Virus record (IMG/VR): IMGVR_UViG_3300037882_004961
Coordinates: 1-43,884 of that record
DNA: 43,884 bases
Strand: one strand, 5' to 3'
DNA from: a virus
Shown here: positions 4,793 through 40,419 of the stretch, piece after piece
How the letters are laid out: each line of letters starts with the position of its first letter
Numbering within the stretch: the first letter of the stretch is position 1
The notes under the pieces: model-generated
Database searches by the model: none
Told to the model about the DNA's origin: nothing
What the model saw: only the letters and a program-made list of their open reading frames with translations
Translations under genes and position numbers: made by a program

Positions 4793-5689
4793 TTAAAAAA
4801 TCATTTGCATTTGTTCTTCTTCAGCTGCGAGCCGAGCGCGTCCTTGCTGGATGGTTATTCCTTGCTGGTAAGAGAAGCCCGTTTCCTGTTCCTTTTGGTG
4901 TATCCAGTCGGCAAGTTCGGGGTTGTGCTTGATACCATTCAAAAAATCATTCCTTGATGCGAGTACGCAGATTGCACAGCTTAAGCGAGTGTTGCCCATA
5001 GCATACGCAGGGTGGATTTTCCAATCATTGGGAACTGTGCCTAAGGTTTTGTATTGCCACCGCCCAAGGTTGTATTCGGATTCAGTCATCCCACAGGCTT
5101 CCAGCACATTTTGTTCGGTGTAGTTGATGATTGCGTTCCAAGTGAAACCCATAGAACCGCCTTTCTTTTTGAAGCCCGCCCTACGTTCAAAGATAGGTTT
5201 TTGGGAGCGGGCTTTTGACTCATCCCACCGAATTCCCTCAATGCTGATAAAGCGAGGGAATTGTTTTAGGTAGGCGTTGATTGGGTCGGTTTTTAGGTCG
5301 CTGGTGCAATACCTTTGCTGGAAGCTCGGATAGATGGGCGTTTTCTTTTCCCGTGCCTGTGCTTCCAGCTGGGCTTGTCTTAGTTCTATTTTGTCCAAAA
5401 GGTCAATCCTTTGCCCGTTGTGAGTTGCGAAAACTTCTACCAGCTCAATTTGGTAGGTTTCGCAGAGTTGGCGGACAAACCCGTTGGTTTGCGCCCATTC
5501 AGCACGCCCCAAGTCTGCGTGGATAGCAAATATTTTGTTGGTTAGGTTGTTGGCTTTGTACCAGCTCAACACGGACACGAGTAGCGCTTGGCTATCCTTT
5601 CCGCCTGAAATAGAAATAGCCAAAACAGCGCCTAAATTTACTTGCTCTGTAATATCAGCAGTCAGATATGGGGTTATGAATGGTTGCAT
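4793..5689 (-). CDS. PAPS-reductase-family PP-loop protein
   Basis: A 298-residue protein of the adenine-nucleotide alpha-hydrolase fold. Residues 26-36 hold the PP-loop SISGGKDSQAL, which binds the phosphates of an adenylyl group. Further landmarks are a CTSDLKTDP segment, GIRWDESKARSQ and a C-terminal CAIC pair. Phages often carry such proteins. Roles in sulfur transfer, in DndC-like DNA modification or in adenylylation are all known in the superfamily, and the sequence alone does not decide among them. An 8-nt gap separates it from the small coiled-coil gene upstream. Confidence 0.8.
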   Translation of the reverse strand: MQPFITPYLTADITEQVNLGAVLAISISGGKDSQALLVSVLSWYKANNLTNKIFAIHADLGRAEWAQTNGFVRQLCETYQIELVEVFATHNGQRIDLLDKIELRQAQLEAQAREKKTPIYPSFQQRYCTSDLKTDPINAYLKQFPRFISIEGIRWDESKARSQKPIFERRAGFKKKGGSMGFTWNAIINYTEQNVLEACGMTESEYNLGRWQYKTLGTVPNDWKIHPAYAMGNTRLSCAICVLASRNDFLNGIKHNPELADWIHQKEQETGFSYQQGITIQQGRARLAAEEEQMQMIF

Positions 5690-7930: not shown

Positions 7931-7962
7931 CAAAGATACGCCAACATTTTAAAACGTCCAAA
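7931..7962 (-). promoter_or_regulatory. Bacteroidetes-type promoter
   Basis: Leftward, TTTG (7959-7962) and TATCTTTG (7931-7938) are separated by 20 nt, an exact match to the Bacteroidetes -33/-7 consensus (TTTG, TAnnTTTG). The -33 box overlaps the end of the palindrome at 7960-8001. It drives the gene starting at 7904. Confidence 0.85.
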
Positions 7963-8001
7963 TAAAAACGGACTTTTTTTAAAAAAAGTCCGTTTTTATT
8001 T
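7960..8001. repeat. 42-bp perfect palindrome, copy 1
   Basis: The sequence is fully self-complementary: AAATAAAAACGGAC, then T7-A7, then GTCCG and the mirrored T-rich end. Identical or near-identical copies lie at 10545-10580 and 11346-11387. Each touches the -33 box of a promoter. As RNA it would form a long hairpin with a T run, so it may terminate the leftward gene at 8023. The perfect symmetry would also suit binding of a dimeric regulator. Confidence 0.9.
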
Positions 8002-10544: not shown

Positions 10545-10580
10545 TAAAAACGGACTTTTTTTAAAAAAAGTCCGTTTTTA
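10545..10580. repeat. 36-bp perfect palindrome, copy 2
   Basis: This has the same core as copies 1 and 3 (TAAAAACGGAC, T7-A7, GTCCGTTTTTA) but lacks the outermost symmetric bases on one side. It lies between divergent genes (starts at 10492 and 10646), where no terminator is needed. This favours a regulatory role over simple termination. Confidence 0.88.
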
Positions 10581-11345: not shown

Positions 11346-11387
11346 AAATAAAAACGGACTTTTTTTAAAAAAAGTCCGTTTTTATTT
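11346..11387. repeat. 42-bp perfect palindrome, copy 3
   Basis: It is identical to copy 1. It lies 3 nt after the small membrane peptide gene and forms the T residues of the -33 box of the next promoter. It could terminate the upstream transcript and at the same time act in control of the downstream promoter. Confidence 0.9.
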
Positions 11388-11442: not shown

Positions 11443-12015
11443 ATGAAACGCACCAACCACGCATCCGCTTTCGCAGCGAAATACGCAAACAACTTGTACT
11501 GGAATTCCAAAGGTACAATCACTAAAGCTGAAGCCTTCAGAGAAGCATACGCCTTCTACAGAGCAAACAAAGCGGCTATCCTTGCCGAGCTTGAGGGACA
11601 GCAGGCACCAGCCGAGCAACCAACCCAAACCGTTGCTGAACAAAAACAAGTTCAAGCTGCAACTGTACAAACAATGATGCAGGAACTTTTGGAGTACGTT
11701 GTTACCCAAGCAAATGTTCTAAACGAAACTATTATTGGCGGAATTGGTATCGCTGAAGCGCTCAAAATCGCATACGCACGCTACCAAACAAATATACGTC
11801 GCAAAGCTGTAGTTATCAAATACATCAAATTAGATGGTGAAGAACGCACAGCAAACGTGGAGGCTATCTGCGAGCTCAAAGAAAGAGACGCAAAAAATGG
11901 CAATATCATGCACATGGAGAATATCCCAGGTGAAGACCAACCCAAAGTAAGAACATTCAAAGCCTCACAAATTATATGCGTGTATCCAGCCCAACCGAGA
12001 AAAGAACAAGCTTAG
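11443..12015 (+). CDS. hypothetical protein
   Basis: A 190-residue protein. Two similar segments, near residues 22-45 (TITKAEAFREAYAFYRANK) and 106-125 (GIGIAEALKIAYARYQTNIR), suggest an internal duplication joined by a Gln/Ala/Pro-rich linker. The C-terminal third looks like a small beta domain. No family is recognised. The promoter and leader are shared with the gene at 7470-7904. Its 3' end overlaps the frame-disrupted gene at 11976-12355. Confidence 0.75.
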   Translation: MKRTNHASAFAAKYANNLYWNSKGTITKAEAFREAYAFYRANKAAILAELEGQQAPAEQPTQTVAEQKQVQAATVQTMMQELLEYVVTQANVLNETIIGGIGIAEALKIAYARYQTNIRRKAVVIKYIKLDGEERTANVEAICELKERDAKNGNIMHMENIPGEDQPKVRTFKASQIICVYPAQPRKEQA

Positions 12016-12355
12016 AGATAAGGCTTGGAATCTCAAGCTGGAGGCTAGCCTAGAGTTTAGGGGTTGGCTGTATGAGCTCCAAGAATGGATACAAGCCAAC
12101 CCACTCAAATACCAACACGAAAAATACCAGCTGGATAATATCCAACCCCTTTGGGTCAAAGCATCTCTGCTTGGTTTCGTTTGCGAGCAACTGGAAACGC
12201 TCAGTAGTGGAGTTCAAAACGAAATCCACATTCAGCGAATAGCGCCCGACGTTGCCGCAATCGTTTCAATGTCCGAAACCATGCTAAACGCATACTTGGA
12301 CGCTGCCTTATCAATCATCAACACAAACATTCAAATCCTTTCCGATTATGCGTAA
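11976..12355 (+). CDS. hypothetical protein with a frame break near its start
   Basis: From about 11951 to 12355 one frame is open and protein-like (LRDKAWNLKLEASLEF, then a helical Trp/Leu-rich chain) but has no ATG, GTG or TTG start before a very late ATG. An ATG at 11976 opens the neighbouring frame (MRVSSPTEK). Adding one A to the AAAA run at 12001-12003 and the base before it would join the two into one protein of about 126 residues, starting inside the previous gene. The cause is either a one-base sequence error or mutation, or ribosomal slippage at AAAAG. The end overlaps the next ATG at 12348, in phage style. Confidence 0.55.
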
Positions 12356-15587: not shown

Positions 15588-15622
15588 CCAACCCGTGACA
15601 AAAATTCACGGGTTGGTTTTTT
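15588..15622 (+). terminator. intrinsic terminator
   Basis: CCAACCCGTGA (15588-15598) pairs perfectly with TCACGGGTTGG (15606-15616) around a 7-nt loop, followed by six T. It separates the 11.4-15.6 kb unit from the membrane-protein genes after it. Confidence 0.9.
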
Positions 15623-15653: not shown

Positions 15654-15881
15654 ATGATTTATCTCCAAACCCTTATGACTTGGTCGGATATTTTTGAAAG
15701 GTTCAAACAATTCCTACCAACGTACATACTCGTTATTCTTATCCTAGTCGCAACCTTTTTGCTGCTGTACCAATACATGAAAATTCGGATACAACGCACG
15801 AGAGACAGGCAGGAACGCATGGAAGCGCTCAACCAACCAATACCTAACCCAAATCCAAACCCAAACTCTGAAAATGCCTAG
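15654..15881 (+). CDS. single-span membrane protein
   Basis: A 75-residue protein with one strong membrane span at about residues 20-41 (LPTYILVILILVATFLLLYQ), then a basic amphipathic helix and a repetitive NPNPNPN tail. It overlaps the start of the large membrane protein gene by 8 nt, so the two are likely coupled and may act together. Confidence 0.75.
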   Translation: MIYLQTLMTWSDIFERFKQFLPTYILVILILVATFLLLYQYMKIRIQRTRDRQERMEALNQPIPNPNPNPNSENA

Positions 15882-16890
15882 CACAAACACAAACTACCAA
15901 CCCAACCACCGACAAGGCAGCCGTACCGGTACAGGTGCTACAGGTGGCAACGCTCCCAAATTCAAAGACAATACTATTGGGAGTATGAAAGCTATCTTCA
16001 AGCTGGAGAAACTTTTCTTTTCATTCAGTACCGCAACCTCTACCATCTCCTGTTTCATGTTCGCATGGGGTGTAAGCTATAACCCACAGGTATTTGTTGA
16101 AGCTTCAGTCGGATATTATGCACTGGGAGCGCTCATACTCGGTATTTCTTTGAGCATCTGTATGGCAGCCGATTTTGTGTTGGTTGGGGTGGTGCTGAAA
16201 GATGCGATTTACTTAGCCTTTGCGGGTCTCCTGTACAAGGGCTTGACCATTTCCCAATATGTTCGCATGGCAATCATGTTTATCTTTGGGACTGCTGGGG
16301 TTTCCTTCACCGTTTTTACCAGCTTTGAGGGTTCAGCCTTTTCGGAGAAAAAAGCAGGCACCTTGTACAAGGAAGTAGCCCAACACGAACCCATTACCGA
16401 CCTACAGAAGAAATATTCCAAAACCCTCAACGAAACCCTTGCTCCACTCAATGCAGAGGTCAAAGCCCTACAGGCAGAAAAGGACGCTGCAGCAAAGGCT
16501 TTCTTAGGCAAGGACTTGTACAAATTGGCAGTTGAGAAAAAGAATAAATGGGCGGTGGAAAAAGCGGACTCTATGGGTCTAAAAAAAGCCCTATCCCAAT
16601 TTGATGCACGGGAACAACAAATCCGCCAAGATATGGAAGAGCTCCGCAAAAAGAACAAGGCGGGCTTTGAAAGCGATGAGCAGATTATTCGGAAACAGTT
16701 GGACAAAGAGAACGGGCTTACCAATCAGAGCGTGGATATGTCCAGCAAGTTTATATTTGCCTTTGGGTTTATCCCCTGCATCTTGGGCGTTATCATCGCT
16801 ATGACTAAGGGGGCGTACAAAGCCGAGCGCCAATACTTGGTACAGACTGGGCAAGCCGACCCGAACGATGAGGACTTACTCCCAAACTAA
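15874..16890 (+). CDS. multi-span membrane protein, zero-frame product
   Basis: A 338-residue protein. After a polar Gly/Thr/Asn-rich N terminus there are four hydrophobic segments at about residues 48-68, 80-106, 110-122 and 128-150. A long charged coiled coil (about 165-285) follows and then a last span at about 293-312. The function is not recognised; the topology would place the coiled coil on one side of the membrane between anchors. The gene ends CTC-CCA-AAC-TAA. These last codons form a canonical slippery heptamer followed by a stem-loop, so part of the ribosomes should shift to the -1 frame and make a 559-residue form (see 16881-16932 and 16887-17552). Confidence 0.82.
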   Translation: MPSTNTNYQPNHRQGSRTGTGATGGNAPKFKDNTIGSMKAIFKLEKLFFSFSTATSTISCFMFAWGVSYNPQVFVEASVGYYALGALILGISLSICMAADFVLVGVVLKDAIYLAFAGLLYKGLTISQYVRMAIMFIFGTAGVSFTVFTSFEGSAFSEKKAGTLYKEVAQHEPITDLQKKYSKTLNETLAPLNAEVKALQAEKDAAAKAFLGKDLYKLAVEKKNKWAVEKADSMGLKKALSQFDAREQQIRQDMEELRKKNKAGFESDEQIIRKQLDKENGLTNQSVDMSSKFIFAFGFIPCILGVIIAMTKGAYKAERQYLVQTGQADPNDEDLLPN

Positions 16891-16932
16891 GCAGCCCTGC
16901 AAGTAAGCCCACCGCTGCACCACTTGCAGGGC
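16881..16932 (+). promoter_or_regulatory. programmed -1 ribosomal frameshift signal
   Basis: C_CCA_AAC (16881-16887) fits X_XXY_YYZ in the reading frame. After a 6-nt spacer comes a perfect 11-bp stem, GCCCTGCAAGT (16894-16904) with ACTTGCAGGGC (16922-16932), and a 17-nt loop. The zero-frame stop TAA immediately follows the heptamer. The -1 frame is open for 221 more codons. Heptamer, spacer and stem all match known frameshift sites. Confidence 0.85.
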
Positions 16933-17552
16933 AAAGCAAATCCGACAATTCCCACCCCTCTCCCAGCTCTAATTTTAGCATCAAAAAGCCCGAAAAAGCG
17001 ACAAATAGGGGAGTTTTTGAGGTAATTGCGACAAAACAGCGACAAAATTCGGAGCTTTTAAACCCAAAAACGACAAATTTAGAGGGCGCAAAAACGGGCG
17101 TACCGAGCAAAAAAGGAGCGGGGAATTCGGAGATGGAACAGGTGGACGACAAAACTTTTACCTTTACGTTGGTAGCACAGGAGCCCGCGCCCAAGTTTGA
17201 CAAGGTGAATAGCATAGATGATATTGAGGACATGGATGATGTTACCGAGTACTTGGATACCAAATATCAAGAAATATCTGAACGGATAGCAAACGCAGGT
17301 ACGCTCAAGACAAAAAGCGATTGGGAGATGAGAGCCGAGCAACTGAAGGCACAGATTGAAACCTCCGAATCCGCCCTCCAAGCTGCCAAAAAATCATTGG
17401 CAAAAGTCCACGAACGAATGAGAAACGGAACATCCACAGGAAAAACCCTTGTTAAAAACCAAGAGCAGGTTCGTATAGCCGAGCGCCAACTTAGCGAGCT
17501 CAAAACCGAACTGCTCAAAGTTGAATCAATTCTAACAAACCAAACCAAATAA
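16887..17552 (+). CDS. -1 frameshift extension of the membrane protein
   Basis: The -1 frame, entered at the slippery site, is open without any ATG, GTG or TTG for the first 82 codons and runs 221 residues to TAA at 17552. It begins as a Ser/Pro/Lys/Thr-rich linker (LSSPASKPTAAPLAGQSKSD), then an acidic segment (DDIEDMDDVTEYLD) and a long coiled coil (about the last 120 residues). An internal ATG at 17133 could also give a separate 139-residue protein. The 242-nt gap that a stand-alone reading would leave is unusual in this tightly packed operon, which supports the fusion. Confidence 0.75.
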   Translation, partial: LSSPASKPTAAPLAGQSKSDNSHPSPSSNFSIKKPEKATNRGVFEVIATKQRQNSELLNPKTTNLEGAKTGVPSKKGAGNSEMEQVDDKTFTFTLVAQEPAPKFDKVNSIDDIEDMDDVTEYLDTKYQEISERIANAGTLKTKSDWEMRAEQLKAQIETSESALQAAKKSLAKVHERMRNGTSTGKTLVKNQEQVRIAERQLSELKTELLKVESILTNQTK

Positions 17553-17556
17553 ACCC

Positions 17557-17772
17557 ATGCTACATCCACTCACTTATATAATCGTTGCTCTCTTTGCTAT
17601 GGCGGTTGGCGTGCTGGTAAATGCAGCATCGGGTTCGCTGGTAGCGATTGTTTCTCTCTTGGTTTGTTTTGGGCTATTTCCAAGCAACAAGGATGTCGAC
17701 AAAGAATACCAAATAAAAAAAGCAGAAAAAACAGCCTTAGCACCCAACCAGGGCAAACGAAAATCCGATTAG
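17557..17772 (+). CDS. small two-span membrane protein
   Basis: A 71-residue protein with a continuous hydrophobic region at residues 4-46, probably two spans with a short Ala/Ser/Gly turn (VNAASGSL), followed by a highly basic tail (KKAEKTALAPNQGKRK). It follows the frameshifted gene by 4 nt. The layout fits a small holin, but the same is true of several neighbours. Confidence 0.72.
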   Translation: MLHPLTYIIVALFAMAVGVLVNAASGSLVAIVSLLVCFGLFPSNKDVDKEYQIKKAEKTALAPNQGKRKSD

Positions 17773-17784
17773 TATTTTGAACCC

Positions 17785-17805
17785 AAGCCCGCCCAGCGCG
17801 GGCTT
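17785..17805 (+). terminator. GC-rich hairpin, copy 2
   Basis: The same 21 bases, in transcription sense, as the hairpin at 5957-5977. Stem AAGCCCGC/GCGGGCTT, loop of 5 nt. There is no T run after it (ACAAATT), so it is a poor terminator and may be a leader or processing element ahead of the gene at 17822. Confidence 0.5.
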
Positions 17806-17821
17806 ACAAATTCCTAACATT

Positions 17822-18082
17822 ATGTCCAAAAAAGTGGTTATTGAAACTCCAGCAGATTTTGAGGCAACACAGCAAAACGTCCATGCCTTTGCCATTTCCA
17901 AAATTGTCAACTATTGGCAACGTGCTGAAGAGGATGCCAAGCGTACAGGTGAACCCTTTTGCCCCGAATTCCCCGCAGAGATATATTTGGTGAATAGGGA
18001 TAGCATTGAGCCTTTGGCGCAACCCAAACCAAGCGAGCACACCGAAATAAAATTCAAAATGATTAAAACACCCAAAGCATAA
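17822..18082 (+). CDS. hypothetical protein, paralogue of next gene
   Basis: An 86-residue protein with the pattern ISKIVNYWQRAEEDAKRTGE followed by a Pro-flanked strand (FPAEIYLVNRDS). The next gene repeats this pattern (AWNRLAKECKRTGQ, then VFPTR), so the two are probably diverged copies. The function is unknown. Its last base is the first base of the next ATG. Confidence 0.7.
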   Translation: MSKKVVIETPADFEATQQNVHAFAISKIVNYWQRAEEDAKRTGEPFCPEFPAEIYLVNRDSIEPLAQPKPSEHTEIKFKMIKTPKA

Positions 18083-18411
18083 TGTCCCAAAAAATTAGGT
18101 ATCCCAAAATAACAAAAGCCCAAATTATGGAGGCTTGGAATAGGCTTGCCAAAGAGTGTAAACGTACAGGGCAAAATATGCCTTTGGAAGTTTTCCCTAC
18201 AAGGGTGGAAGATAATAGGCTCATAGGCTACATTATTGACCAACCCGACATACTGTACGAAACAGATAGTTTAGTTTCTTACCGCTCATATTGTGATGAG
18301 GGAATTATAAAAACGCTTTCACCAAGACAAATTCCAGCAACCATTTGGGAGTTTGATACTTCCACAGATTTTTTTAACACCATAAACCCACCCGAATCCG
18401 ATGCAAAGTAA
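18082..18411 (+). CDS. hypothetical protein, paralogue of previous gene
   Basis: A 109-residue protein with the W-x-R/L-x6-KRTG helix motif shared with the gene before it, then beta-type strands. Not recognised. It overlaps the nucleoside kinase start by 11 nt. Confidence 0.7.
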   Translation: MSQKIRYPKITKAQIMEAWNRLAKECKRTGQNMPLEVFPTRVEDNRLIGYIIDQPDILYETDSLVSYRSYCDEGIIKTLSPRQIPATIWEFDTSTDFFNTINPPESDAK

Positions 18412-19213
18412 CAAAATGTATATTATTTCTGTATCAGGCCCCATTGCAGCAGGCAAAAGTACCTTTTTGGAAGCCTTTGAGCCAAGGTTCAAATATGAAA
18501 TGGGAGAGCTTAGCCCTAAAATTTGGTTCATGCAAGAGCCTCAATTTTTCAAAGGTTCACAATCCCACGAGCTGGCAGCGGAATATTTCGGAATTACCAC
18601 CGAAACGCCCAAGGATAAAGCTCAAGATATTGTGTATAGGTTTCAGCTCGCTATGCTTCACGACCGCGCAAAGCATATGCAGGAAGCCCAAAACAAAGAT
18701 TGCGCAATTTTCGTAATGGAGCGGTCTCCTTTGGAGGATGAGTTCTTCTGGGATAATTTGCATCAACGGGGCTTACTTTCTGCAAGGGATTTAGCTATTT
18801 TACATAATACAAGGGAGCACCTTTTTGGTGAAGATTTTGCGGTGGATGTGCTTATCAATATCAACATACCCGCCAAGGATGCGTACCAAAACGCGCTGAA
18901 CCGTGCTAAAAGGAACAACGACCGCGCTCCCGAACTAAACGTGTTCCCAATGGAAACCTACGAGCTTATGCACGATTGGTATTTTGGGTTTACAATTAGG
19001 GCTATTTTGGCGGGGTCGGCGCTTGTGGAGGTGCAGTTTTCAAAATTGGTGGAGGATTTGGAAGGTGAAGTGAACAGGATTTGCGAAAAAATACCAAGAC
19101 ACATTTTATTCGGTGGCTTTTTTGATTGTGCGGATGATGTTATTACTCCAGCTTGGACAAACTTGACCGGCTTAATGGACTTGGACGATTCTGAACTCTT
19201 TGAACCTCAATAA
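18401..19213 (+). CDS. deoxynucleoside kinase
   Basis: A 270-residue kinase of the dCK/dGK/TK2 type that phosphorylates deoxynucleosides to monophosphates with ATP in the cytoplasm, supporting phage DNA synthesis. Visible marks: P-loop GPIAAGKST (residues 13-21), the ERSPLEDEFFW segment corresponding to the family's (D/E)RS motif, and an Arg-rich lid (NRAKRNNDRAPE). A second in-frame ATG at 18416 is an equally good start and lies closer to the first strand. The C-terminal 60 residues are longer than in minimal family members. The enzyme family is clear; the preferred base is unknown. Confidence 0.85.
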   Translation: MQSNKMYIISVSGPIAAGKSTFLEAFEPRFKYEMGELSPKIWFMQEPQFFKGSQSHELAAEYFGITTETPKDKAQDIVYRFQLAMLHDRAKHMQEAQNKDCAIFVMERSPLEDEFFWDNLHQRGLLSARDLAILHNTREHLFGEDFAVDVLININIPAKDAYQNALNRAKRNNDRAPELNVFPMETYELMHDWYFGFTIRAILAGSALVEVQFSKLVEDLEGEVNRICEKIPRHILFGGFFDCADDVITPAWTNLTGLMDLDDSELFEPQ

Positions 19214-20053: not shown

Positions 20054-20356
20054 ATGTGCGAATTCCATATCCCGCTTCAAGCAAAGCGCCCACCACAAGA
20101 CCCCGAATTTAACACCCCCATTTGGGTGGGTATATTTGGCAGCCCGCCCGTTCAATCTCTACTAACTGAAAATGAGATGATGAAACTGAAGCTAATGCAC
20201 CCACAAGACCCCGAATTTGAAGAGCAACGAGGTATAGGGCGGGTAAGGATTGCCGCCCAACAAATCCTTTTAAACGCAACCAACAATCTTAAACGTAACA
20301 TTCACATTTTAGAAATCATCAACGATGACAAAACAAACTCAAAACCTTACCTATAA
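20054..20356 (+). CDS. hypothetical protein
   Basis: A 100-residue protein with the phrase PQDPEF appearing twice (residues about 13-18 and 50-55), hinting at a short internal duplication. No catalytic motif. It overlaps the next gene by 32 nt. Confidence 0.68.
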   Translation: MCEFHIPLQAKRPPQDPEFNTPIWVGIFGSPPVQSLLTENEMMKLKLMHPQDPEFEEQRGIGRVRIAAQQILLNATNNLKRNIHILEIINDDKTNSKPYL

Positions 20357-20693
20357 GCAAGCCGCTGATATAGCCCGCCAAAAAGGTTATCTATTTACCC
20401 GTGATTCCTACAATGGTAAAGCGCTATTTTTCCGCCCTGGACACCATACAACGGCTGGGGCAATTCAGAATTACACAAGCGCTCCCGATTTGCTAAAGGA
20501 AGTGCTCAATAACATGGATGCTGATACTCCTGTGGAGTTTAGCGATTACCTTTGCATAGCAGATGTATCCGTGAATGGGAAAGTAACCATTGGGCAAAAC
20601 TTTCTACCATCATACAAAGACGTACACGCTTATGATTGGAAGCTTATAACGGATGCGAACCTTTCATCATTTATCAAATTAGCCCACGACTAA
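20325..20693 (+). CDS. hypothetical protein
   Basis: A 122-residue soluble protein with a helix near the start (TYKQAADIARQKGY), then beta-type and aromatic-rich segments. Helix-then-sheet order recalls small DNA-binding or modifier proteins, but nothing specific is recognised. Confidence 0.7.
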   Translation: MTKQTQNLTYKQAADIARQKGYLFTRDSYNGKALFFRPGHHTTAGAIQNYTSAPDLLKEVLNNMDADTPVEFSDYLCIADVSVNGKVTIGQNFLPSYKDVHAYDWKLITDANLSSFIKLAHD

Positions 20694-20962: not shown

Positions 20963-21001
20963 AAAAACGCCTGCCTATCCAAAGATAAGCAGGCGTTTTT
21001 T
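20963..21001. terminator. bidirectional terminator
   Basis: AAAAACGCCTGC (20963-20974) pairs with GCAGGCGTTTTT (20989-21000) around a 14-nt loop, with T runs on both strands. It closes the rightward module and backs up the leftward terminator at 21160-21194. Confidence 0.88.
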
Positions 21002-29934: not shown

Positions 29935-32900
29935 TTATTTTAAAACGCGTGCTTTCTTTACGTCGGCAACATCCTTAGAAAAAGCATTCAAATCGTTGAG
30001 GCTCAAATTTACGCTTAAATTTTTGGTTTTCGCATCAATGGTTGAATTAATAATTTGGGCTAGTGCTTCCATATCAACCACTTGTGCATTTTGGGCGGGT
30101 GCAGGTTGGCTTGTAGGCACTCTCGGAGCTTTCATAGAAACAGGACGAGCGCCAACAACTCCACCGCCTGCGAATCCAGGCACACCAGCACGAGCCAATG
30201 TATTGTATCCTATTTTTAGCTGTTGGGTTTTATTGATAACCGCCTCGTCCTCATTGAGATAAGCCAAAACCTTGTCCCCGCGTTGGGTTGCGGGTGCGTT
30301 CTGCTTAACCTTTCCCTTTAGCTTGCCCTGTCCCGATGATAGGTCATAAATGTTAGTATCTCCAGCTTTGACCAAACCACCATCTGCGAATTCCTTAGCA
30401 GCAATCGCAGCAATTTGAGCAGCGCCTGCGATACTCACGGCTATACCCGCAATTATACCCTGCGTTGCAAAAGCCCGTGTAATAGCCAACGCAACATTTA
30501 TGCCCGCTTCAATCAAAGCCGACTGTTTGGCTCTTTTTCTGCGTTCAGCTTCCAAAGCTTCCTTTTCGGCTTCTATTTTCTGCTGTGCCTGCGTTTCCTC
30601 TTCAATTTGTTGGTTAAGGTATTCGGTTCTAAGCGCTGATGCACCGTTCAGTTCCTGTTTCAGGCTCTCAATGCGTTTGTTGGAACGCTCCGATTCTTTG
30701 TCAAGTCGCTTTTGGTCTGCATCATCAATCTGTGTTTGTGCTTGGGTAAGAATATCCAGTCCCTGCTGTGCGAACCCCGCAATAGCCTCAAAGGTACTAA
30801 GCCAATCCTCTTTCCGTTTCTTTTGGAATTCCGCCTCGTCGTCTGCATCTGCTTTCCGTGCTGCCTTCTTCTTGTCGTTCAGCTCCAATTCGGCTGCTAA
30901 AATCGCATTGTCTATGCGTTTCTTTTCGGTCAAACGCTCCTGCGATAATTCTTTGTCCGAATCCAAGCCTGTAAGCGCAATTTGTGCAGCCTCTTGGTTG
31001 AACCGTTCCTGCTGCTTTTTGAGCTCGTTATACTTCAGCTGTGCCTGCTGTACTGATAAATTCCGCTCCGATAATCCGCCCTTTTGTAGGAGCAGTAGGA
31101 AGTTTTCATTATCCAGCGCCTCCTGTTCGGCTATGCGTGCATTGATGTTTTGGGTTTGGGCTAGTGCTTTCTCGGCTAATTCCTTTTTATTCTGTAGAAT
31201 GAACTCGTTCTTTTCAGCTTCTATTTGTTCCTGCTCATTTGCCTGCTGTTGGGCTTTGGCTGTGTCAATCTCTGCATATTTAGCATTGATGTCGCTTATC
31301 AGTTCTCGGGTGCGTTGAGCCCGCTCCAATGTGAGCTTATCCCGTTCACCGACTTTCTTGGCAAATTCCGCCTGTTCTTGCTCCAAGTTTTTAACCTCTG
31401 TAGCCTTGGCAGCCGCGCGGTCTTGTGTAGCCTGTTCAAATGCAAGTCGGGACTGTTCCTTTTGCTTGGCAAAATCATCTTTGAGCAGTTCCGCCCGTGT
31501 ATTGACCAGTTCCCGCTCCAGCGAAAGGAGTATGGTGTAATATTCAGCTTCTCTCTTTACGTCTTCCTTGATTGCGTCCGCCCGTTCTTTGGCAAATTCC
31601 TTACGCTCCTTAGACCGTTCTTTGGCTCGTTCCTCTGCTGCCTTTTTGGCTTCCTCTGTAAGCTGTTGGTTGGCTGCTGCTGCCTCTTTTTGGGCTAGTG
31701 TGGTCAAATCCGCACCAGCAGCGGACAGGTTTTGTATTCCAGCAGTAAAACCCTCATCAAAGGCAGTCGCTGTATCCTTGCCTGCTGATAGGGCTGCATT
31801 CTGTGCGTTTACAAAGGCAAATTCAAAAGCGAGGGATTGTTCGGTTGTGAGTTGGTCAACAAAATCCTTTCCGTATATTTTGGTTAATTTGCTGGAGAAC
31901 GATTGTTGGAGCGCCTCCCTTTCTTTTAAAAAGGCATTTTCATTCGCTGCAGCTTGTCTTTGGGCTTCTGAGGTTATGCCAACAAAATCCGTAACAGCTT
32001 GCCCAGCCTCATAGATTGCGTTGGCTGTAGCCTTGACCACATTTATGTACCCAACCCAAATATCAACGAAATACCCCAAGCCCTTTATAAGGAGCGGTAA
32101 AACGACGCTTGCAAATTGGCTAAACTGCTCCTTGAGCGGTGCAAACTTTTTCACAAGGTCGGATTGGGCTTTTGCCAATTCCCTGTTTGCGTCCAAATCT
32201 GCCTGTTTGCGTTTGGAAAATTCGCTAAGGCTATCCGATGCATCCTTGAACTTGCTTGGCAAATCAACGATTCCCTTGAGGTATTCCTCATTATCTTTTT
32301 GACCGCTCACAAGCCCTTTCTGAATCCGAGCCAAAGCATCATTGAAAGATGTCCCGCTTTGCAATGCTAGCTGTTCCGCCGCTTGGCTTATCTGTTCAGC
32401 CGATACATCAAAGGCTTTAGACGTGGATAGCACCTCCTGCGTTTGCTTATCAAGGGCTTCACCGTTGGCTTTGGAATACTTTTGAACTGTGTCGGATGCA
32501 TCGGTGTACTCGTTTGAGAAATTCACCACAGCAGCACCAGCAGCGACAGCAGCTGCAGCGATTGCCACAAAGGCAGCAGCGCCAACGGCAAAGGCTTGGA
32601 TGCTTTTCCCAAACCCACCCAATGATTTGGTAGCCGTATTCACCGCCAACCCCACATTTTTACCAAAAACCCGACCAACCAAAGCGCCCAGCTTGTTCGC
32701 TTTGCGCTCGGTGTCTCCCATCTCATCCTGTAGCTCTATGAGTGCTTTCTCTATGTCGTCCGCCTCTTTCTTAAGGTTTTTCCCAAAATCCGACTGTAGG
32801 GCTTCCTTGTTGAGTAGCTGTAGCTGTCCGCGCGTATCTGCGAGCCGTTTCTGTAAGTCCTTGTATGAGCCTTCAGGGATTGGGTCGGCTGCCTTTTTGG

Positions 32901-33300
32901 CTGTATTGGTTATTTCCCCACGCAACCGCTTAAATTCAGCCTCCAATTCAATGGATTGCTGCTTGAGCTTACTCCCAAATTCCCCTTTAAGCTCATCATC
33001 ACTAAGCAATTGAAGCTGTTTGCGGGTTTCGGCTAATTGCGCCTGTATGTCCTTGTATGAACCTTTGGCGGGGATTGGCTTGCTCAACTGTTCGGCTGCC
33101 TTTTTTCCCGTGTTGGTAAGCGCTTTGAGCTCGGCTTCTGTTTCCTTTATTTTTTTATCAAGGTCTTTGAACGCATCGCTTTTTATTTCGGTGGTCTCCA
33201 GTTCCTTCTTTAGGACTTTTAGGTTGTCCCTTATTTTTTTGATAGTGTTTTCGGCTCCAGCATCTACAATTCTAATCCTTAGGGCTATCTCTTCAGGCAT
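29935..33300 (-). CDS. tail tape measure protein
   Basis: An 1121-residue protein that should set tail length and pass into the host envelope during DNA delivery. Residues 15-200 contain coiled coil with two similar blocks, each starting with GSYKD(I/L)Q and continuing to LQLL. A hydrophobic span follows at about 240-262 (AAAFVAIAAAAVAAGAAV). A very long Glu/Lys/Ala/Gln-rich coiled coil covers about 540-930. A second hydrophobic stretch lies at about 945-980 (GIIAGIAVSIAGAAQIAAIA). The length predicts a tail of roughly 160-170 nm at 0.15 nm per residue. Confidence 0.9.
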   Translation of the reverse strand: MPEEIALRIRIVDAGAENTIKKIRDNLKVLKKELETTEIKSDAFKDLDKKIKETEAELKALTNTGKKAAEQLSKPIPAKGSYKDIQAQLAETRKQLQLLSDDELKGEFGSKLKQQSIELEAEFKRLRGEITNTAKKAADPIPEGSYKDLQKRLADTRGQLQLLNKEALQSDFGKNLKKEADDIEKALIELQDEMGDTERKANKLGALVGRVFGKNVGLAVNTATKSLGGFGKSIQAFAVGAAAFVAIAAAAVAAGAAVVNFSNEYTDASDTVQKYSKANGEALDKQTQEVLSTSKAFDVSAEQISQAAEQLALQSGTSFNDALARIQKGLVSGQKDNEEYLKGIVDLPSKFKDASDSLSEFSKRKQADLDANRELAKAQSDLVKKFAPLKEQFSQFASVVLPLLIKGLGYFVDIWVGYINVVKATANAIYEAGQAVTDFVGITSEAQRQAAANENAFLKEREALQQSFSSKLTKIYGKDFVDQLTTEQSLAFEFAFVNAQNAALSAGKDTATAFDEGFTAGIQNLSAAGADLTTLAQKEAAAANQQLTEEAKKAAEERAKERSKERKEFAKERADAIKEDVKREAEYYTILLSLERELVNTRAELLKDDFAKQKEQSRLAFEQATQDRAAAKATEVKNLEQEQAEFAKKVGERDKLTLERAQRTRELISDINAKYAEIDTAKAQQQANEQEQIEAEKNEFILQNKKELAEKALAQTQNINARIAEQEALDNENFLLLLQKGGLSERNLSVQQAQLKYNELKKQQERFNQEAAQIALTGLDSDKELSQERLTEKKRIDNAILAAELELNDKKKAARKADADDEAEFQKKRKEDWLSTFEAIAGFAQQGLDILTQAQTQIDDADQKRLDKESERSNKRIESLKQELNGASALRTEYLNQQIEEETQAQQKIEAEKEALEAERRKRAKQSALIEAGINVALAITRAFATQGIIAGIAVSIAGAAQIAAIAAKEFADGGLVKAGDTNIYDLSSGQGKLKGKVKQNAPATQRGDKVLAYLNEDEAVINKTQQLKIGYNTLARAGVPGFAGGGVVGARPVSMKAPRVPTSQPAPAQNAQVVDMEALAQIINSTIDAKTKNLSVNLSLNDLNAFSKDVADVKKARVLK

Positions 33301-39378: not shown

Positions 39379-40419
39379 CTATTTTTTAGGTGCCTTTTTG
39401 GTTTTGGGTGTTTCAGCTGGCTGTTCGTCCGTTGCGGTCTCTGTATCTTGGTCGGTTTCCTCTGTGCTGGTTTCGGCTGGTTCCTCAACCTTGGGCGTTT
39501 CCGTGTCTTTGGCTGGTTCCTCTGTGCTGGTTTCGGCTGGTTCCTCAACCTTGGGTGTTTCCGTGTTGGCAGCAACTGCGTTGTCGACAGTTTTGGGATT
39601 CAATAGTTCAGCCTGCAATTCTGCCTGTTGTTCTGCCTTGACTGTCTCAACCTTGGCGTATTCCGCAACAGCTTGTTTCGCAACCTCGTCCTTTTTCTTT
39701 ACATCGGCTTCCAAAAAGATGAGTGCTTTCTCTGTGAGGACATTAACACCATAGCCGACAGAAATCGGCAATTTAACCTCTTGAGCCAAGGCTAGGTATT
39801 TTTGGTAAATATCAATCCAAACAGATAGTTTTTCCGAAAGTCTAAGCATCCGCTCAAAGAACTTGTTTTTCAACAGGCGGTCAAAGATTGGGAAAAGTTC
39901 CCGTGCCTTTGTAATAAAGGCTTTGGGGTCGTGTGCCTGTACTGAATCCCGATAAGCATCAATGAGCGCCTTGATGTCGGAAAATAAGCCCCGACTGCCT
40001 GCCTTGGGCTCAGCGCTGATGTTGCTAATCTTATCCGCAAATTCAGCCGTTTGGATATATCCACCAATCAAAACATCTTCTTTGCCCTCAATGTCATCCA
40101 CCAACGTTTTGGCTTCAGCCTCCAACTGCTGAAGCAAAGAATCATAGGCACTTTGGTGGGCTGTGATACCTTTCTCAAGCTGGAATGCTTGACCCAATCC
40201 GAGCGCGTTAGGATTGGCTAAAATACCCTCAAGGTTTTGCAAGGGTTTGAGCAAATATTTGTCTTTGCCTGCTGAGCATAGGGGTGCAGCCTGTTCAAAG
40301 GCAGCCTTAACCTTTTCTTTGGCTTCTGTAAGGATAGCCTTAGCAAGTGCTGCAGGGCAAGGTTGCGATTCACGTGCTGGTTTAGCTTCAGCTGTAGAAT
40401 CTTGATTCAATTCTTCCAT
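39379..40419 (-). CDS. hypothetical virion-module protein with repeat tail
   Basis: A 346-residue mostly helical protein. Residues 1-280 hold an Ala/Lys/Glu-rich chain (AILTEAKEKVKAAFEQAAPL), then a low-complexity acidic C-terminal tail with a 20-residue unit (TETPKVEEPAETSTEE and four more) present twice. It directly follows the large terminase. Neither scaffold nor tail identity can be proved from sequence. Confidence 0.68.
   Translation of the reverse strand: MEELNQDSTAEAKPARESQPCPAALAKAILTEAKEKVKAAFEQAAPLCSAGKDKYLLKPLQNLEGILANPNALGLGQAFQLEKGITAHQSAYDSLLQQLEAEAKTLVDDIEGKEDVLIGGYIQTAEFADKISNISAEPKAGSRGLFSDIKALIDAYRDSVQAHDPKAFITKARELFPIFDRLLKNKFFERMLRLSEKLSVWIDIYQKYLALAQEVKLPISVGYGVNVLTEKALIFLEADVKKKDEVAKQAVAEYAKVETVKAEQQAELQAELLNPKTVDNAVAANTETPKVEEPAETSTEEPAKDTETPKVEEPAETSTEETDQDTETATDEQPAETPKTKKAPKK
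39459..39578. repeat. two 60-bp tandem repeats in coding sequence
   Basis: Units 39459-39518 and 39519-39578 are nearly identical and code for a 20-residue Pro/Glu/Thr-rich motif. A third, partial and diverged unit precedes them in plus-strand order. It probably varies in copy number by slippage. Confidence 0.85.

Follow-up and report, generated by a model that had tools for sequence, protein, structure and literature searches.

In the window analysed here (the virus record IMGVR_UViG_3300037882_004961, 43,884 bases, taken over its whole length), the gene of a predicted multi-pass membrane protein of 338 amino acids (aa), named ORF1, ends in the slippery heptamer C_CCA_AAC, which is joined to the stop codon TAA and followed by a hairpin, and the −1 frame remains open for 221 codons beyond it. 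Programmed −1 ribosomal frameshifting, as proposed in an initial annotation made from the letters alone, is by far the best explanation and is considered highly probable because of the exact signal, its conservation in a related phage around a changed hairpin loop, the conserved −1 frame, for which no good conserved start was seen, and a second CCCAAAC-TAA site in a tail gene. Most ribosomes would stop at the TAA at 16888 and release the 338-aa multi-pass membrane protein; a minority, paused by the hairpin 6 nucleotides (nt) downstream with CCA in the P site and AAC in the A site, would slip jointly onto CCC and AAA and continue for 221 codons, giving a 559-aa protein in which the membrane protein is followed by a basic flexible linker and a helical coiled coil at the C-terminus. 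That slippage occurs, that the C-terminus faces the cytoplasm and what the two products serve for is what we infer; the slippage rate would probably be low because the A-site codon is AAC. By analogy with capsid and tail frameshift pairs, the long form may be built in small numbers among short-form subunits into a membrane assembly, where it would anchor a soluble partner or DNA at the membrane; this role is the weakest part of the proposal.

Proposed frameshift signal at the end of ORF1

The 3′ end of ORF1 reads ...CTC CCA AAC TAA. The hairpin stem is 100% complementary over 11 base pairs (bp), and the spacer, which begins with the TAA, amounts to 6 nt from the heptamer. The architecture described in the initial annotation (C_CCA_AAC, TAA, 6 nt, perfect 11-bp stem, 17-nt loop) was thus recovered exactly, at 16881-16932. 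Folding of the 73 nt 3′ of the heptamer gave −22.9 kcal/mol (z = −4.79), and 0 of 200 dinucleotide shuffles were equally stable. The bare hairpin (−20.3 kcal/mol) corresponds to 0.52 kcal/mol per nt; for 271 members of the IS3 family a mean hairpin energy of 0.452 kcal/mol per nt is given (PMC4066793). When 39-nt segments were folded on both strands at every third base, 23 of 29230 were as stable as the hairpin or more so, including the hairpin itself, and these fall into four places, namely the ORF1-end hairpin (on either strand) and hairpins near 0.67, 20.98 and 21.93 kb, with the one at 15.6 kb lying just below.

An intrinsic terminator was rejected for the ORF1-end hairpin on the T tract criterion: the stem is followed by AAAGCAAATC, which holds no T tract, whereas T tracts are present at 668-705, 20963-21000 and 15588-15616. 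The hairpin is also absent from the list of terminator-like elements, which was produced with loops of 3-8 nt only and includes 15588-15616. A loop pseudoknot was discarded (no exact complement above 5 nt within 53 nt upstream or 68 nt downstream), as were stop readthrough, which would extend the frame by just 44 codons (window) or 17 (relative), and transcriptional slippage (no long homopolymer). A search of 16600-17400 with Rfam gave nothing near a gathering score.

What is expected of programmed −1 frameshifting was found together at this gene end, that is, a phased heptamer, a structure in the ~5-9 nt range, a long overlapping −1 frame and conservation of the signal. The background frequency was taken from the window plus 226 loci (2.87 Mb, nearly all terminase relatives from viral contigs and genomes), which contain 4191 open reading frames (ORFs) of at least 100 aa. 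A heptamer stands directly before the stop in 43 of these, and a perfect stem of at least 9 bp begins 4-9 nt past the sense codons in 24. A heptamer falls within the last four codons in 137 cases; two of these have a −1 frame of at least 150 codons lacking a start in its first 60, one being the window case and the other having a best stem of just 3 bp. The full combination (heptamer, stem of at least 8 bp, −1 frame of at least 150 codons, first 60 free of starts) was found in the window case only among the 4191 ORFs.

The −1 extension and its counterpart in a related phage

No stop interrupts the −1 frame between 16872 and 17552, and the 221-codon extension reaches its first possible start (ATG, GTG or TTG) at its 83rd codon, the ATG at 17133. 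The open frame with its 82 leading codons devoid of these starts, and the two product lengths of 338 and 559 residues, had been predicted beforehand and were confirmed from the sequence and the frames. The extension was modelled with AlphaFold from the single sequence as ~110 mostly unstructured residues followed by three helices, the last two with block values of the predicted local distance difference test (pLDDT) of 82-97, in agreement with the linker and coiled coil proposed earlier. Nothing above cut-offs was obtained for the extension in Pfam and NCBIfam; its best viral fold match (E = 0.003) was not used. Coordinates of all features are collected in the table.

Features at and around the end of ORF1 (positions in the window)
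Feature	Position	Strand	Remarks
75-aa protein, hydrophobic stretch (by eye)	15654..15881	+	ATGCCTAG; end overlaps ORF1 start
ORF1, 338-aa multi-pass membrane protein	15874..16890	+	hydrophobic stretches, predicted
Slippery heptamer C_CCA_AAC	16881..16887	+	X_XXY_YYZ phase of ORF1; identical in relative
0-frame stop TAA directly after heptamer	16888..16890	+	identical in relative
Predicted junction of the 559-aa fusion		+	...DEDLLPNLSSPASKPTAAPLAGQSK; junction peptide QYLVQTGQADPNDEDLLPNLSSPASKPTAAPLAGQSK; translation
−1 frame linker	16890..17132	+	cationic, isoelectric point ~10, predicted disordered, no ATG/GTG/TTG; open in relative
Proposed stimulatory hairpin	16894..16932	+	stem 16894-16904/16922-16932, 11 bp, 17-nt loop, −20.3 kcal/mol
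Five CGACAAA repeats, linker and just past it	16999..17154	+	three reading frames; array kept in relative
C-terminal part of extension, three predicted helices (coiled coil)	17133..17552	+	AlphaFold model
Next gene, 71-aa protein, hydrophobic stretch (by eye)	17557..17772	+	start context scores high

A relative (IMGVR_UViG_3300046331_000696, 42,866 nt; loci L228/L237) was retrieved from viral contigs with a DNA pattern consisting of the heptamer, the TAA and GCCCTGC (7 stem bases); the heptamer, stop and these 7 bases were thereby fixed beforehand, and the pattern placed no demand on the remaining 5′ arm, any of the 3′ arm or the open frame. The pattern returned 8 stretches, of which one (L228) is homologous to ORF1, one (L229) is a tail gene and six lack a comparable gene end. 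The relative has matches for 17 window frames, with the order preserved throughout; these are ORF1, the C-terminal part of the extension and 15 more, three or four of which match weakly. Its ORF1 has 341 aa and is 59% identical to that of the window (ratio of non-synonymous to synonymous divergence, dN/dS, 0.205; dS 1.4). Both phages share the heptamer, TAA, GCA and the 22 stem bases, save for one A to G change (U-A to U-G); all 11 stem pairs are kept, 10 of them identical, around a loop that differs in sequence and has grown from 17 to 20 nt, and the relative's hairpin was calculated at −19.3 kcal/mol. The stem kept around a free loop is conservation and not covariation as judged from the two sequences, because no pair changed on both sides. 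The last 8 codons for conserved residues before the heptamer are all identical, which is weak evidence because a run of 11 occurs elsewhere in the ORF1 gene.

The −1 frame of the relative likewise has 221 codons from the same point, with no stops, and is 43% identical over residues 1-219 (E = 3.4e-40). Past 17133, third codon positions are more divergent (p = 5e-5) at a dN/dS of 0.33, with dS near saturation, so that this part of the extension is under clear protein selection. The linker (243 nt) has a coding score of 0.188, which lies within the span of the 21 training genes (0.055-0.306) and was reached by 0 of 342 open shuffles; its only indel against the relative is one of 3 nt, in the hairpin loop. 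Loss of heptamer and stem from relatives in which both frames persist, an outcome considered in the initial annotation, was not seen: both frames and the full signal are kept in the one relative (1/1), and because the signal is kept in this sister phage it looks real on comparative grounds.

The second site is in another phage (L229, about 1720-2334), where a tail gene (phrog_2115 'tail protein', E = 1.6e-24; phrog_183 tail chaperone, 0.003) ends in CCCAAAC-TAA and is followed by an 84-codon −1 frame and then by a frame read by eye as the tape measure. CCCAAAC-TAA would thus be used a second time at a place where frameshifting is common, and a slip there is suggested by the same reasoning.

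Several observations weigh against frameshifting in ORF1. The predicted helix in L229 (15 pairs) starts ~19 nt past the heptamer and not 6, so that the signal is not the same in full. The conservation comes from a single relative in a two-sequence comparison, with 0 pairs changed on both sides in the consensus fold. In the linker, the third-position excess is not significant (p = 0.195; dN/dS 0.63), the two other forward frames also have positive coding scores (0.134 and 0.104), and synonymous divergence is low (pS, the proportion of synonymous differences, 0.42 vs 0.64 in ORF1), so part of the linker is conserved at the nucleotide level. C_CCA_AAC, with AAC in the A site, lies outside the efficient class by the rules given for E. 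coli (PMC4066793), in which the most efficient A-site codons are AAG and AAA, and A_AAA_AAC and G_GGA_AAC are weak yet very likely used by insertion sequence (IS) elements. The label 'textbook' given to the site therefore goes too far on one point, the A-site codon.

The other weights against frameshifting come from start codons, and with them belongs the reading that ORF1 ends normally and a second, separate gene begins at ATG 17133 or a nearby TTG, the 242 nt between being untranslated. This would fit the stronger coding signal in the C-terminal part and the substitutions in the linker, which are without significant coding bias; moreover, two codons upstream of the site that corresponds to ATG 17133, the relative has a TTG of average context (−0.34), and the TTG at 17169 of the window scores −0.67. 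Start contexts were scored against 49 chosen ORF starts, which are not proven genes, each with itself left out. ATG 17133 obtained −11.4, under all 49 reference starts (−9.1 to 10.2) and below 94% of 660 non-start ATGs, and its −3 base is G, whereas initiation in Flavobacterium is favoured by A at that position (PMC6847099). Opposite it the relative has Gly, and the relative's first in-frame ATG is at codon index 118, within the conserved part. TAnnTTTG is the Bacteroidota −7 motif; no exact copy is present on the plus strand at 16752-17982, and one-mismatch copies lie at 16970 and at three places past the start. A weak internal start is possible, and no good conserved one was seen in the two sequences. 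Without the extension, the gap of 242 nt would be the second largest of 20 between consecutive genes of the plus-strand cluster (a chosen set), 18 of which are between −32 and 108 nt; the largest, 332 nt (12016-12347), holds a frame that is intact in the relative. Since the heptamer, the stem and the open linker would, with separate genes, have to coincide by chance in two phages, this reading was considered improbable.

A disrupted gene, in which 560 aa of coding sequence were split at the heptamer by a one-base indel or an assembly error, has a precedent of a kind at 12016-12347, where a similar break may exist, since a gene intact in the relative lacks a continuous start-to-stop frame there. 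The same split, heptamer, stop and stem nevertheless recur in a separate record whose first product is just 59% identical, and the chance of such a disruption was taken to be negligible.

Nucleotide-level conservation of the linker could also stem from an intergenic DNA element, such as a replication origin or operator array made of CGACAAA and an inverted repeat, with the −1 frame and the heptamer accidental. Five CGACAAA copies occur within 156 nt and in three frames, exceeding 30 first-order Markov simulations in which no 7-mer reached 5 in 160 nt (maximum 4); a count of 5 in 160 nt is shared by one further 7-mer of the window. Counted from the heptamer end, the copies are at +112, +142, +153, +184 and +260 in the window and at +115, +145, +156, +167 and +202 in the relative, and spacings of 30 and 11 nt are common to both. 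The low synonymous divergence of the linker points the same way. Such an element leaves unexplained, on the other hand, why the heptamer is phased and joined to the stop and why the same 221-codon −1 frame runs into a clearly coding part in both phages; also, only 1.7% of shuffled linkers stay open, and in simulations at 30-45% divergence an open non-coding frame of 64 codons remained free of stops in 9-16% of runs. A DNA element in place of frameshifting was therefore held to be very improbable. The array may, as judged from its pattern, be a DNA element inside the linker, iteron-like and perhaps an origin or operator array, which would explain the low synonymous divergence and is compatible with frameshifting. 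An extended proposal, which we regard as doubtful, is that in a family of phages infecting Bacteroidota-type hosts −1 frameshifting fixes the proportion of two forms of a membrane protein, the rarer one having a cytoplasmic arm. The DNA for the linker of this arm would also hold the conserved CGACAAA array, so that slippery signal, coding sequence and a DNA binding or origin element would share a single stretch, and phage DNA might be tethered to the host membrane via the very protein encoded there.

ORF1, its genomic context and the search for further relatives

Hydrophobic stretches of ORF1 lie at residues ~46-67, 73-154 and 286-316, with a long helical region at ~160-281; its AlphaFold model is poor (mean pLDDT 53.8). 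No match above cut-offs was found for ORF1 in Pfam, PHROGs, NCBIfam and PDB sequences. PHROGs returned just an anti-sigma factor match (E = 0.052) and no tail-chaperone profile, and for the relative's ORF1 no match at E 0.01. TssO of the type VI secretion system (PF17561) was rejected at 15.9 bits vs a Pfam cut-off of 29.2, and the best viral fold match (E = 0.029) was not used. A scan of 1193 frames of the fetched loci for the same topology gave five others beside ORF1, of which three (L022, L150 and L182) were judged spurious, as was a phmmer match in L104 (E = 0.008); the remaining ones are L076 and L082.

Further relatives were sought in several collections. Single-protein scans of viral contigs with ORF1, the extension, the terminase, the deoxynucleoside kinase and the protease gave no relatives; the phage collection gave no match for ORF1, the extension, the relative's ORF1, the portal-type protein or the protein 39379-40419; and plasmids and genome contigs gave 0 for ORF1. 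Terminase-alignment scans supplied the best 80 rows from viral contigs twice (some loci shared) and the best 80 from genome contigs; ORF1 searches of part of these loci gave 0 in 43 records and 0 in 46 (30 viral and 16 genomes). ORF1 was searched against 396 genomes of the order of a Saprospiraceae metagenome-assembled genome, with two weak matches that were read as RND-type pumps and rejected, and against 395 genomes of the phylum, with 0; the extension gave 0 in 298 genomes. A two-row profile (A4) matched in 2 of 396 and 0 of 395 genomes, in draws that overlap the earlier ones. One of its matches (L238, genome G228) is a 733-aa frame aligned to ORF1 positions 219-314 (E = 1.6e-5), probably just coil and membrane helix similarity, and the other is a frame with four stops.

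The window carries terminase, tape-measure, head-protease and weaker portal profile matches, all on the minus strand. The phage collection gave 509 matches to its terminase, every one below 60% identity; Bacteroides phages rank best, followed by Flavobacterium phages, and Salmonella phages are the most numerous (131), with ~20-35% query coverage among the matches listed. Upstream of most of the 49 reference ORF starts the sequence is A/C-rich with few G (mean 1.65 per 20 nt), and Bacteroidetes are described as lacking Shine-Dalgarno sequences (PMC6847099). Because of the terminase matches, the G-poor start contexts and this description, we infer a phage of a Bacteroidota-type host.

ORF1 belongs to a plus-strand cluster of mostly small genes, between the 75-aa and 71-aa proteins and ~1.5 kb before a deoxynucleoside kinase. 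The counterpart of the 75-aa protein in the relative is 55% identical over 58 aa, in the same order, and that of the 71-aa protein is 46% identical. The terminator-like hairpin at 15588-15616 (+; 11-bp stem, TTTTTT) is directly upstream of the 75-aa gene that precedes ORF1, and the part of the cluster holding these two genes may for this reason have its own promoter.

Other features of the window were recorded alongside. The deoxynucleoside kinase (18401-19213, +) matches PF01712 (E = 2e-13), a protein with a PAPS-reductase/PP-loop domain is encoded at 4793-5689 (−; PF01507, E = 4e-14), and a 122-aa protein at 20325-20693 (+) has a Tad2-like (Thoeris anti-defence 2) Pfam match (E = 2e-4, 22.2 bits vs a cut-off of 25) and a 49% identical counterpart in the relative. 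Around GGACTTTTTTTAAAAAAAGTCC the sequence forms a long perfect palindrome that occurs three times (7960-8001, 10545-10580 and 11346-11387), and two of these copies adjoin near-identical promoter-like stretches ending in TATCTTTG (11409, +, and 7938, −), as if a single promoter module served both directions. At 11443-12355 (+), past a 190-aa gene (11443-12015), the frame stays open to 12355, mostly without a start codon; the relative has the same protein as an intact gene with its own ATG, overlapping the first gene, and the two records differ by a one-base gap. From this comparison the gene would in the window be broken, mis-assembled or recoded.

Comparison with known frameshift systems

If frameshifting in ORF1 is real, phages would use it also to fix the ratio of two forms of a membrane protein, and there would be a natural C_CCA_AAC site in phages with hosts that probably initiate translation without depending on Shine-Dalgarno pairing. 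Ordinary gene calling would split the region into two genes and give the second a doubtful start, and the CGACAAA array in the linker would be a testable lead to a DNA element. The mechanism itself is known; the gene context, a phage membrane protein, was not met in the literature searched, in which no title or abstract opening described a frameshift in such a protein. The initial annotation cited no described frameshift in a phage membrane protein of this kind outside the tail chaperones; frameshifts in other phage genes are on record (PMC5009743), so that the unusual point is the membrane protein as carrier.

The tail chaperones (lambda G/GT) resemble ORF1 in that a −1 slip at a heptamer shortly before the first frame ends yields a minor product with a longer C-terminus. 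They differ in that ORF1 is on the plus strand and not directly upstream of the tape measure, which is at 29935-33300 on the minus strand, and in that ORF1 is a multi-pass membrane protein with no tail-chaperone profile match and a 221-codon extension. Transposases of the IS1/IS3 families share the heptamer and structure, and AAC-type heptamers of low efficiency in E. coli are very likely used there (PMC4066793); unlike them, neither ORF1 nor the extension has a transposase profile match. In some dnaX-type frameshifts, unpublished cases mentioned in PMC5009743, the long form is the frameshift product with the stop directly after the shift site, so that the position of the stop is alike; ORF1 has no DnaX homology and a different heptamer. 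Phage frameshifts in the literature consulted are mostly those of tail chaperones and virion proteins, and among the coat and tail proteins T7/T3 gene 10, phage A2 and the Listeria phages A118, A500 and PSA are listed (PMC5009743). There, too, a short and a C-terminally extended form are made from one gene, but these are virion proteins, several with Ig-like extensions, whereas ORF1 is a membrane protein outside the structural genes and its extension is predicted to be a linker with a coiled coil.

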